A stretch of 64,000 bases of DNA from Aestuariivita sp. (GTDB lineage: Bacteria; Pseudomonadota; Alphaproteobacteria; Rhodobacterales; Rhodobacteraceae), in contig NZ_JAAWWD010000040.1 of NCBI RefSeq assembly GCF_021404545.1, positions 1 through 64,000 on the forward strand, read 5' to 3'. The notes beneath the pieces were generated by a model, which saw nothing but the letters and a program-made list of their open reading frames with translations, was not told the origin of the DNA and did not search any database. This document shows positions 38,892 through 47,287 of the stretch, one piece after another. Position 1 is the stretch's first letter; the number at the start of each line of letters is the position of its first letter. A program made the position numbers and the translations under genes.

Positions 38892-39920
38892 TCATGGGAA
38901 CAGGGGGGCCATCAACAGCCCTTCCGTCTCCGACTCACCTAAGATCAGGTTAGCATTTTGCAACGCCTGCCCACTGCTACCTTTTGTCAGGTTATCCAGC
39001 ACCGTGACCACGATGGTCCGGCCCGTAATCCGGTCGGGCACCACGCCGATATGGCAAAAGTTCGAGCCGCGCACATGATGGGTCGAAGGTGTCTCGCCCA
39101 GAGGCAGCACGGCAAGAAACGGCTCATCGGCATAGGCCTCGGCAAAGGCCCGGTGGATCGCCTGCGCCTCGCCCCTCAGATAGGCCGTAGCCAGAATGCC
39201 CCGGTTGGCGGGGATCAGATGCGGGGTGAACTGAACCTGCACGGGCCGCCCCGCGAGGCGCGAGAACTCCTGATCGAACTCCCCCAGATGCCGGTGCGTG
39301 CCGCCCACCGCATAGGCGTGATAGCCCTCGGACAGTTCCGCATGCAGCAGGTTTTCCTTCAGCGACCGCCCTGCCCCCGACACTGCGCATTTCAGGTCCA
39401 GAATGATCTCATCGAGATCGATCACACCGGCGGCGATCAGCGGCCGCAGGGCGAACTGCCCCGCGGCCGCGTTACACCCCGTGCCCGCCACCAGCCGGGC
39501 CTGCGCGATCTGTTCGCGGTAGAACTCCGTCAGCCCGTAAACCGCCTCCCGCTGCATCTCCACCGCGCTATGGGCGTTGCCGTACCATGTGGCATAGGCC
39601 TCCGGGTCGCGCAGCCGGAAATCCGCCGAAAGGTCGATGATCTTTAGATCCGCAGGCAGGGCAGAAATCACCTGCTGGCTGGTTTTGTGGGGCAGCGCGC
39701 AAAAACACAGGTCAATCGCCGCAAAGTCGATCTCGTCGATCTTACAGAGCTTTGGCAGCTCCATATGGCGCAGATGCGGAAAAACCTGCGCCATGTGCAT
39801 GCCTGCCTTACGGTCCGCAGCCAGGGCCGCGATCTCGATCGTGGGATGTCCGGCGATCAGCCGGATGAGTTCGGCGCCGGTATAGCCGGAGGCGCCCAGA
39901 ATAGCGACGTTATGGGTCAT
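38892..39920 (-). CDS. argC: N-acetyl-gamma-glutamyl-phosphate reductase (atypical active-site context)
   Basis: 342-residue aspartate-semialdehyde-dehydrogenase-fold reductase of the ArgC family, third step of arginine synthesis. NAD(P)-binding loop [13 protein letters not shown] (residues 9-21), CALPHKTSQ near 74, [17 protein letters not shown] near 98, [19 protein letters not shown] near 177, GGTHRH (207-211) with the catalytic His, and NRGILATAY near 240. The active-site Cys149 sits in [11 protein letters not shown], not the usual NPGCYPTA, which recalls LysY-type or paralogous ArgC enzymes. First gene of argC-ccmE. Confidence 0.85.
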
Positions 39921-44700: not shown

Positions 44701-45188
44701 AGCGCCCATTCCGATTGATGCAGCACGGTGGAGCTTTCGCCGGTATGGTCATCGCCCATCGCCACCAGCACACCGCCCAGAGCGCTGGTCCCTGCCATAT
44801 TGGCATGCCGGAACACATCGCCGGTGCGGTCCACCCCGGGCCCCTTGCCGTACCACAGGCCAAAGACCCCGTCATACTTGCCCTCGCCGCGCAGTTCGGC
44901 CTGTTGGCTGCCCCAGATCGCGGTCGCGGCCAGATCCTCGTTCAGGCCGGCCTGAAACGTCACATCCTGTGCCGCCAGATGTTTCGCGGCGCGCATCATC
45001 TGCATGTCGACCGCCCCCAGCGGAGAGCCGCGATACCCGGTCACCAGACCGGCGGTATTGTGCCCGGCGGCACGATCCCGCTCTCTCTGGATCAGCATCA
45101 GCCGCACAAGGGCTTGCGTTCCGTTCAACAGAACCTGATCTTTCTCAAGATCGAACCGGTCATTTAGCGAGATTTTTTGAGTGCTCAT
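41769..45188 (-). CDS. indolepyruvate ferredoxin oxidoreductase family protein (fused alpha/beta)
   Basis: 1139-residue thiamine-diphosphate and Fe-S enzyme that oxidatively decarboxylates aryl or branched-chain 2-oxoacids to acyl-CoA. An N-terminal pyruvate-ferredoxin-oxidoreductase-like domain (GLVTGYRGSPLGAVDMQMMR, near residue 45) is followed by the ThDP domain (YFCSGCPHNTSTKVPEG near 425; GGEGANWIGEAPF near 470; NDAVAMTGGQSNEGDLSAPQ near 525), a ferredoxin-like cysteine cluster (DVCEGCGDCGVQSNC near 645; SCNKDFSCLKGFCPSF near 680), and a C-terminal gamma-type domain (GVGGTGVVTIGAVLAQAA near 732). In archaea these parts are separate subunits. Divergent from a LysR gene that may control it. 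Confidence 0.93.
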   Translation of the reverse strand: MSTQKISLNDRFDLEKDQVLLNGTQALVRLMLIQRERDRAAGHNTAGLVTGYRGSPLGAVDMQMMRAAKHLAAQDVTFQAGLNEDLAATAIWGSQQAELRGEGKYDGVFGLWYGKGPGVDRTGDVFRHANMAGTSALGGVLVAMGDDHTGESSTVLHQSEWALMDAYLPIVSPAGVQEILDYGIYGYALSRFSGLWVGLKTMKDTVEATAVVDGRPDRMRLLAPAFDMPEGGLNIRLVDDRHQQEERLVRHKRFAAEAFSHANQMDKRIWGKPGAKIGFVAAGKNWLDLIHAMSLLNIDANEAERLGITLYKVGQTFPLDMKGFNDWAEGLDLIVVVEEKRKLIEVQIKEAIFDDRRGRRVYGWYKGGAGSLHREELFPTHGDLNPHLIAQQLGDILLEEGRETAGIRAGLAELDAARRSDNAEEITSRLPYFCSGCPHNTSTKVPEGSRAYAGIGCHFMVQWMDRETLGFTHMGGEGANWIGEAPFSKRDHVFQNLGDGTYNHSGVQAIRAALAAGTKITYKILYNDAVAMTGGQSNEGDLSAPQIVAELKAMGVEHLAVVYDEKEDVDPKAFPAGVPLHERIEMMKVQQEMETKDGVSAIVYVQTCAAEKRRRRKRGTFPDPDRRVFINTDVCEGCGDCGVQSNCVSIVPKETELGRKRAIDQSSCNKDFSCLKGFCPSFVTLEGAKVKKEATTALELPELPLAELPVIDGTHNVVITGVGGTGVVTIGAVLAQAAQIDGKGAGMMEMAGLAQKGGAVHIHCRIAENPDDISAIRVATGEAHALIGGDLVVSAGSKTLGLTRTGQTGAVVNSHEIITGDFTRDTEFALPSDRLQVALQARLQDRVDLFDASDLAKVTMGDSIFSNMMVFGAAWQRGLIPLSLDAIQAAIDLNGAAVEKNLRAFDIGRWAVLYPAEVERILKPTIISLPKTLEEKIAYRADHLVAYQGKRLAKRYAKMLGQIGDPALKEAVAKGYHKLLAYKDEYEVARLHLSTYEKARAEFDGDFQMKFHLAPPILSKMGPEGRPLKKEYGPGMMRNFRILAKLKGLRGTPLDPFGRTAERRMERALIKQYEADMKEVLPKLTDQTREAIIALAELPLQIRGFGPVKEANEAKAAKRREELLSVIRQGGPQMAKAAE

Positions 45189-46263: not shown

Positions 46264-46314
46264 GCCATGCATCCAGCGCATGGCGGACATGATGCAACTG
46301 CGGCAGAAAATCTC

Positions 46315-46343
46315 TTGATCGGACACAGACTGCACCCTAAATC
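46315..46343 (+). promoter_or_regulatory. putative promoter of the sRNA at 46350
   Basis: TTGATC (46315-46320) and TAAATC (46338-46343) are separated by 17 bp, a plausible sigma-70-type pair, which would put the start site near 46350 where the structured RNA begins. Confidence 0.45.
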
Positions 46344-46349
46344 ATCAAT

Positions 46350-46432
46350 TGAAGGTGATGGCGCCCAACGGCACATCATCTTCATACCTCCCTGTTGGAC
46401 TTCGGCCGAGCTTAGTGCTCGGCCTTTTTTTT
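46350..46432 (+). ncRNA. candidate small regulatory RNA, ~82 nt
   Basis: GAAGGTGATG (46351-46360) pairs with CATCATCTTC (46374-46383) with one G-U, forming a 10-bp stem over a 13-nt loop (GCGCCCAACGGCA). An unpaired ATACCTCCCTGTTGGAC follows, with an anti-Shine-Dalgarno-like CCTCCC (46387-46392); its GTTGG (46394-46398) can pair with CCAAC in the first loop. A strong terminator closes it: GGCCGAGC (46404-46411), TTAGT, GCTCGGCC, then eight T. A promoter-like pair sits just ahead. This hairpin/CU-rich linker/terminator layout is that of trans-acting sRNAs such as the alphaproteobacterial AbcR type. It could also be a processed 3' end of the LysR mRNA. Confidence 0.6.
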
Positions 46433-46441
46433 GGCGGTCGC

Positions 46442-47287
46442 TCAAGGCGCCCCAGAACACTCCAGCAAAACCGCAAGAAGATCGGCTTCGGGATCAGCGC
46501 GCAGAACCGTGCCATTGCGCCAGGCTATGGACAAAGCGCATTTTGCCGCCGCCCAACCCAACAGCCGTTCGCGCGGCACGTCGAACCCGCCTGCCCATTG
46601 CTCGGCCAGGCTGAGGATGCGGCGCGGATCGCGCACCAGATCCGGTTGATCCGCCGGGTGGCGGAACGCGTTGGCCAGCTCATAGGCCCTGTCACCGAAC
46701 AGACCCTTGGCATCAAAGGCCACATAGCCCCGCGCCGAGGCCCGGATATTGTCATGGTGCAGATCGCCATGCAGCGGGTGCATATCGACGGCCTTGGCCA
46801 TCAGCTCCGTGGCGACCCTCATGGCGCGTTGCATATCGTGGCGCAATTGAGGCGCGCAGTCGGCGGAAAAGGACAATCCCAAAAGCCCCTCGAACCAGGC
46901 ATGCAGCCGGGGCAATGGCTGTGATGTGGTCACCGGCGACCGGTGCAAATGGCACGCAACGCTCAGCAACTCTGTTGCGGCGCACGCATCCCGGCCCTGT
47001 CTGGACAGATCGCCCAGCGACGGCCCCTCTAGCCACTCCATCAAAAGCGCCGCCTGATCATGGTCGAAAACCCGCACGACCCCGTGACCGTCCCAGGCCT
47101 CCAGAACGGCGCGCCCGGCGGTCTCATTGCCCATATGGCCCCGCCAGTAGTGCTTGAGCGCGGCGACGCCACCCTGTCTGCGCCGCACTTTGAAGATCCG
47201 TGCAATCGCGGTCTCGGCGATCAGTGTCGGATCGCTGATCCGGAACCGGGTCAGCATCGCGTCCGGGATCAAATCTGGCAGCGGCAT
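46442..47287 (-). CDS. aminoglycoside/hydroxyurea phosphotransferase family kinase (APH(6)-like)
   Basis: 281-residue protein-kinase-like phosphotransferase. The nucleotide region (RIFKVRRRQGGVAALKHY) lies near residue 29, the catalytic Brenner motif LHGDLHHDNI near residue 171, and the metal-binding VAFDAKGLFGDRAYELANAF near residue 188, which matches the DxKG of streptomycin 6-kinases. Such genes are common chromosomal members whose natural substrate is often unknown; a resistance role is not implied. Convergent with the LysR/sRNA segment and divergent from purL. Confidence 0.85.
   Translation of the reverse strand: MPLPDLIPDAMLTRFRISDPTLIAETAIARIFKVRRRQGGVAALKHYWRGHMGNETAGRAVLEAWDGHGVVRVFDHDQAALLMEWLEGPSLGDLSRQGRDACAATELLSVACHLHRSPVTTSQPLPRLHAWFEGLLGLSFSADCAPQLRHDMQRAMRVATELMAKAVDMHPLHGDLHHDNIRASARGYVAFDAKGLFGDRAYELANAFRHPADQPDLVRDPRRILSLAEQWAGGFDVPRERLLGWAAAKCALSIAWRNGTVLRADPEADLLAVLLECSGAP

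Follow-up and report, generated by a model that had tools for sequence, protein, structure and literature searches.

The window, as the whole 64,000-nt stretch of DNA analysed in this study is called, carries downstream of a LysR-family gene an element that is a member of a named sRNA family, SorY (RF02651)/SorX (RF02784). Judged by sequence and gene position, it is an orthologue of SorY, the singlet-oxygen-resistance sRNA of R. sphaeroides (excerpts of PMC6238624 and PMC8307010), the host being, to judge by its relatives, a roseobacter. We consider it very probable that the element encodes an RNA of about 83 nt, which would be transcribed from an RpoH-type promoter and would cover, with its linker, the Shine-Dalgarno sites of solute-binding-protein mRNAs. 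An RNA of this kind is already known; what is new is the family-wide spread of SorY, together with possible additional targets. The range of a stress sRNA known from work on a single phototroph is hereby extended to most of the sampled family, marine roseobacters included, and the conserved promoter and seed make target tests straightforward. The features of the locus are collected in Table 1.

Table 1. Features of the SorY-type locus in the window
Feature	Position	Strand	Basis or remark
LysR-family regulator gene, 301 aa	45358-46263	+	Pfam HTH_1 and LysR_substrate; conserved SorY neighbour, directly upstream
-35 element CTTG of RpoH-type promoter	46314-46317	+	Exact promoter form conserved in LysR-linked loci
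-10 element CTAAAT	46337-46342	+	Conserved; agrees with RpoHI/RpoHII bases reported in excerpt of PMC3441632
SorY-orthologous sRNA, ~83 nt	46349-46432	+	Start by equivalence to mapped R. sphaeroides SorY start, +/- ~2 nt
5' hairpin	46350-46384	+	Predicted fold; covariation
5' stem, 10 bp	46351-46360 with 46374-46383	+	Sequence; possible 11th pair T46350-A46384
CCAAC; GTTGG	46365-46369; 46394-46398	+	Sequence; proposed loop-linker partners
Stretch CTTCATACCTCCCTGTTGGACTT, 23 nt, identical to SorY	46380-46402	+	CM alignment
Free linker, likely pairing seed	From 46385, within 46380-46402	+	Holds anti-Shine-Dalgarno CCTCCC (46387-46392)
Intrinsic terminator	46404-46432	+	8-bp stem (46404-46411 with 46417-46424) and eight T (46425-46432)
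APH(6)/hydroxyurea-kinase-like gene	46442-47287	-	Pfam APH_6_hur

Gene organization and conservation of the SorY locus

In R. sphaeroides, the SorY gene is preceded by a LysR gene and followed by purL. The LysR protein of the window is 77% identical to the LysR encoded upstream of R. sphaeroides SorY (locus L034), and the sRNA is separated from purL by the APH-type kinase gene on the opposite strand. A scan of named genomes with a 29-nt sequence, composed of the linker and a terminator arm, yielded at least 118 loci, and the taxa of 80 of these are Rhodobacterales genera or unnamed Rhodobacteraceae, Paracoccaceae and alphaproteobacterial bins. Among the matches listed, LysR was located upstream in 103 of the 107 loci with at least 700 nt of upstream sequence and purL downstream in 78 of the 101 loci with at least 1,200 nt of downstream sequence. 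No match to the kinase gene was detected within 600 nt of the linker in any of the 118.

The reverse search, using the LysR protein as query, found 95 of 100 family genomes to contain a match at E <= 1e-100. For the best 30 of these 95 matches, a set that includes the window (LysR identity 79-100%) and was selected independently of the linker, the 14-nt linker CCTCCCTGTTGGAC was found at most 203 nt downstream of the LysR match in all 30 loci, followed by a T run, and its 19-nt form CATACCTCCCTGTTGGACT in 24. Conservation of stem and linker beyond the terminator, on which the earlier note had made its proposal depend, is evident from this count and from the covariation of the hairpin described below. 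For the conservation counts that follow, a collection of 144 LysR-linked loci was used, consisting of the SorX-model, SorY-model or linker matches listed after four duplicate places were dropped; L031, with a LysR of 55% identity and an altered linker, is probably non-orthologous and was counted anyway. A description of the LysR-purL position, of the family-wide spread or of the naming problem in Rfam was not met in the literature searched, a weak negative as the primary SorY and SorX papers lie outside that literature.

Family assignment by Rfam covariance models

The Rfam/Infernal search that the earlier note had proposed was run with the segment and matched both the SorX and SorY families. 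At default cut-offs, positions 46344-46430 were named SorX with 50.1 bits (SorX cut-off, 46.6 bits; E = 3.5e-9 for the sRNA segment, computed over the whole window), whereas the SorY model, at a permissive threshold, gave the higher score of 60.9 bits at 46352-46432. These two matches and the SorY synteny overturn the previous statement that no named family was known which the element clearly matches. In the CM alignment, the stretch CUUCAUACCUCCCUGUUGGACUU is identical to the SorY consensus at 23 of 23 positions. SorY is not reported by default for the window element because its gathering cut-off stands at 111 bits, far above the score of the window. In 100 family genomes, the SorY model found a match at E <= 0.001 in 91, part of these being SorX-type copies, and the cut-off was reached in 1; since the 111-bit value is missed by 99 of the 100 genomes, we consider the threshold, rather than the membership, to be at fault. 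For the single match above the cut-off, at G076:C4:1632645, the distance to the published SorY start (1,632,642; PMC6238624, excerpt) is 3 nt, and this G076 copy, L034, was therefore taken as SorY of R. sphaeroides 2.4.1. After Rfam naming of 18 loci, hand-picked from the 144 LysR-linked loci, R. sphaeroides was named SorY, but among the other 17, 14 were named SorX and 3 remained unnamed. Rfam at default settings thus names SorY orthologues SorX, which would mislead anyone transferring known targets. The RF02784 (SorX) model picks up SorY orthologues, and RF02651 and RF02784 have a common linker, yet no clan is given in the Rfam output.

Is the window element then SorX, as Rfam names it? It passes the SorX cut-off and shares with R. 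sphaeroides SorX (formerly RSs2461) the linker core ACCUCCCUGUUGGA and the general architecture, but this identification is improbable in view of the higher score with the SorY model and of the gene context. SorX is located behind the OmpR-like gene RSP_0847, from the 3' UTR of which it is derived by RNase E processing (PMC6238624, excerpt), whereas the window element follows a LysR gene, as SorY does, and has a conserved promoter of its own, which speaks against the SorX identification and against an origin by RNase E cleavage. Moreover, contig C65 of the same genome carries a tandem pair of better SorX copies, with 67.2 bits each, the first of which lies directly behind a gene encoding Response_reg and Trans_reg_C domains; the OmpR-type neighbour is thus found at the C65 copies, while the gene upstream of the window element is LysR. 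Since these stronger copies sit behind a response regulator gene, as SorX does behind RSP_0847 (PMC6238624, excerpt), the window copy is the paralogue in the SorY position. In the flanks, up to 1.5 kb, of the fetched high-scoring SorX matches (L001, L002 and L005-L023), this LysR gene was not found, the OmpR-type neighbour having been examined at L001 only. With R. sphaeroides SorY (formerly RSs1543), the window element shares the LysR-purL place, a promoter of the same form, the hairpin-linker-terminator plan and the 23 identical nucleotides; unlike R. sphaeroides SorY, it differs in sequence and loop of the 5' hairpin, scores below the Rfam cut-off and belongs to a genome without a clear takP orthologue.

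Other relatives were noted in the course of these searches. The SorX tandem (G000:C65:39035-39109 and 39219-39294; L001 and L002) has its starts 184 nt apart behind the OmpR-type response regulator gene, and four other genomes (G001, G002, G022 and G023) likewise carry two SorX-model matches close together on one contig. A weaker relative with the linker CCTCCCTGTCAGAC and a terminator (G000:C54:89311-89382; L004, L336), which gives 29.5 bits with the SorX model, is possibly a third member of the SorY/SorX family. A further SorY-model match at C65:34859 was discarded, as the stretch examined contains no CCTCCC linker.

Promoter of the SorY-type RNA

The pair TTGATC (46315-46320) and TAAATC (46338-46343) with a spacer of 17 bases, previously proposed as the promoter, is present in the sequence, but it is better read as an RpoH-type promoter, CTTG-N19-CTAAAT, than as one of sigma-70 type. 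This form is found in both the window and the R. sphaeroides SorY copy L034. The exact form occurs in 50 of the 144 LysR-linked loci, against 0 in 30 dinucleotide-shuffle sets, and a loose form in 122, where the shuffled sets gave 14.5 on average and 27 at most, both forms having been defined after inspection of the sequences. The loose form was also found in 26 of the 30 LysR-fetched loci, a count given without shuffle comparison. The bases reported are C at -37 and T at -9 for RpoHI, C at -14 and T at -13 for RpoHII, and TTG from -36 to -34 for both (PMC3441632, excerpt), and the bases and element spacing of the window promoter agree with that report. By the same numbering, +1 would fall on 46351, 2 nt from position 46349, to which the mapped SorY start approximately corresponds.

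SorY of R. sphaeroides is established as an sRNA and has a transcription start of its own (PMC6238624, excerpt); its transcription is reported to depend on RpoHI/RpoHII, and the RNA is reported to be unprocessed and bound by Hfq (excerpts of PMC8307010 and PMC5036791). A search of the window genome with TIGR02392 gave four matches, one of 365.6 bits above the cut-off and three below it (274.2, 167.8 and 143.5 bits); from these scores, the best two are likely RpoHI and RpoHII, and the other two are likely further sigma factors. One Hfq is carried by this genome. In this organism, the RpoH-type promoter, responding to heat and singlet-oxygen stress, would drive transcription of an independent RNA about 83 nt long, whose terminator U tail would bind Hfq, and dependence on Hfq is probable.

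The earlier note had raised the alternative that the element is only the hairpin and terminator of the LysR 3' UTR, with no function in trans. The sRNA start follows the LysR stop codon by 85 nt on the same strand, and read-through is possible, but this alternative is now disfavoured because a conserved promoter lies between LysR and the hairpin; with the conservation of the linker, which is superfluous for termination, and the standing of the orthologue SorY as a trans-acting sRNA (excerpts of PMC6238624 and PMC8307010), we consider it very unlikely.

Structure and covariation

The stem, linker, terminator and promoter pair were all confirmed in the window sequence at the coordinates originally given, and the SorY orthology, together with the conservation of promoter and linker, lends good support to reading the element as an independent sRNA of about 83 nt that acts in trans, has its own promoter and exposes an anti-Shine-Dalgarno linker. 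The 83-nt strand folds with -38.7 kcal/mol, compared with -20.4 kcal/mol (sd 3.0) for 200 dinucleotide shuffles, none of which was as stable (z = -6.0). In the minimum-free-energy fold, the 5' hairpin and the terminator are separated by a linker that is largely unpaired. The pairing between CCAAC of the loop and GTTGG of the linker, proposed from the sequence, is absent from this fold and unconserved, CCAAC being present within the 33 nt examined before the linker in 2 of the 144 LysR-linked loci, including the window copy, and was rejected; CAAC or CCAA is present there in 13 loci.

For the test of pairing, 50 of the 144 loci, representing 44 distinct sequences, were chosen solely by three bases at a fixed register. 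The structure of the window element allowed pairing in 70.5% of cells; sliding it lowered this to 37-47%, and 500 shuffles gave 64.0% on average and 67.0% at most. In a 32-sequence alignment, which was picked by eye and is biased towards structure, the covariation score was 0.191 against 0.110, with none of 500 shuffles as high. Ten pairs change on both sides, all of them in the 5' hairpin (7 of 11 in the outer helix and 3 of 3 in the inner helix). The covariation that the earlier note proposed to look for in both stems is seen, at the level of sequence comparison, in the 5' hairpin. The terminator stem is invariant in the 32 rows; the invariance provides no evidence, because the 5' arm of this stem was part of the search pattern for 14 of the rows, and the SorY model supplied the others. 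The predicted RNA would begin with a 5' hairpin whose sequence varies and whose shape is conserved, continue with the unpaired linker AUACCUCCCUGUUGGACUU, which is strongly conserved, and end in a Rho-independent terminator.

An exposed anti-Shine-Dalgarno motif is also a property of the CcsR or cuckoo RNAs, which are stress sRNAs of alphaproteobacteria. CcsR1 is, like SorY, RpoHI/RpoHII-dependent and co-precipitated with Hfq (PMC5036791, excerpt), but membership of the window element in this group is highly improbable, as its linker has CCTCCC instead of the motif CUCCUCCC, it follows a LysR gene, unlike CcsR1-4, which are cotranscribed with ccaF1 (PMC8307010, excerpt), and the Rfam matches include no CcsR or cuckoo family.

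Predicted targets of the SorY-type RNA

As a SorY orthologue, the window RNA would act through the CCUCCC of its linker, which mirrors the Shine-Dalgarno sequence and would pair over the Shine-Dalgarno sites of mRNAs for periplasmic solute-binding proteins. Such pairing would block ribosomes and destabilise the mRNA, and less substrate would be imported into central metabolism under oxidative stress. The known target of SorX is a spermidine transporter. SorY, a stress-induced RNA that represses a nutrient-uptake protein, is reported to act on takP, a malate transporter gene (excerpts of PMC8307010, PMC6238624 and PMC5036791). We identified R. sphaeroides takP through PDB 2hzk (full length, 365 residues, E = 7e-255); it carries GTCCACAAGGGAGG 6 nt before the ATG, which is complementary to the linker CCUCCCUGUUGGAC at 12 of 14 positions, the site being derived here by complementarity.

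When the 14-nt anti-linker was searched in the R. sphaeroides genome with at most 2 mismatches, 26 places were found, against 18 for the reversed pattern. Two of the 26 are the SorY and SorX genes themselves, and five, including takP, precede a frame of at least 60 aa. The same search in the window genome gave 35 places against 19 for the reversed pattern, of which 30 were covered by the start-codon check. For the two genomes together, the excess over the reversed pattern is weak. A clear takP orthologue was not found in the window genome, the nearest TakP relatives being 36% and 33% identical. For the former, the 3' half of the linker adds nothing (57 of 100 permuted tails were as good), and for the latter it adds little (29 of 100). 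In an exact target scan of 12 genomes (CAACAGGGAGG plus ATG), the window genome matched only at the sRNA gene itself; the looser form ACAGGGAGG gave six other places, five of them before reading frames of at least 80 aa.

We also compared the complementarity of the linker to the genes for TRAP binding proteins of the window genome, of which 24 loci were found, 21 fetched and 19 retained after the filter for start and Shine-Dalgarno sequence. As background, 83 genes from the window plus 400 kb of the genome were used, a first background of 321 reading frames having been set aside because it holds miscalled genes. The mean gain by the 3' half of the linker over permuted tails was -2.0 kcal/mol for TRAP genes and -0.6 kcal/mol for the background (one-sided p = 0.004, exploratory and uncorrected, with script-chosen starts). 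After separation by Shine-Dalgarno strength, the uncorrected p values were 0.048 for strong sites (14 versus 38 genes) and 0.0008 for weaker sites (5 versus 45 genes), and comparison with 14 background genes having a crude signal peptide gave p = 0.010, also uncorrected. For 4 of the 19 TRAP genes, the linker showed no advantage in pairing over permuted tails, and three of the best background genes encode solute-binding proteins (NMT1-like, SBP_bac_8 and SBP_bac_5). For R. sphaeroides, the same script assigned start codons at 6 of the 9 TRAP loci, some of them doubtful, with the best gain for takP and L235, and with no gain from the linker 3' half at L222, which has a strong Shine-Dalgarno site. 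The TRAP result suggests, by predicted pairing, a broader set of uptake targets. A wider proposal, which we put forward only tentatively and hold to be rather less probable than its opposite, is that SorY and SorX belong, as two branches, to a single Rhodobacterales family with a common, strongly conserved seed, matched to the Shine-Dalgarno and upstream CAAC-type sequences of many solute-binding-protein mRNAs, and would serve as a general stress brake. If this is true, these RNAs would, in a roseobacter that encodes some two dozen TRAP binding proteins, brake nutrient uptake in general rather than one transporter.

Some other ribosome-binding sites showed complementarity to the linker. At the site of the divergent gene of 1139 aa beside LysR (start at 45188, - strand), the pairing of the linker was equalled or bettered by 3 of 100 permuted tails, and at that of a gene judged by eye to be glutaredoxin-like (about 50125, + strand) by 4 of 100. 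Putative transposase copies of the IS4/5 family (assigned by Pfam on L267), located near contig ends (L267:1520, L273:1520, L274 and L275:1520), carry TTCCAAAAGGGAGG before the start codon, a sequence complementary to the SorY linker at 12 of 14 positions, and SorY RNA might damp translation of the transposase.
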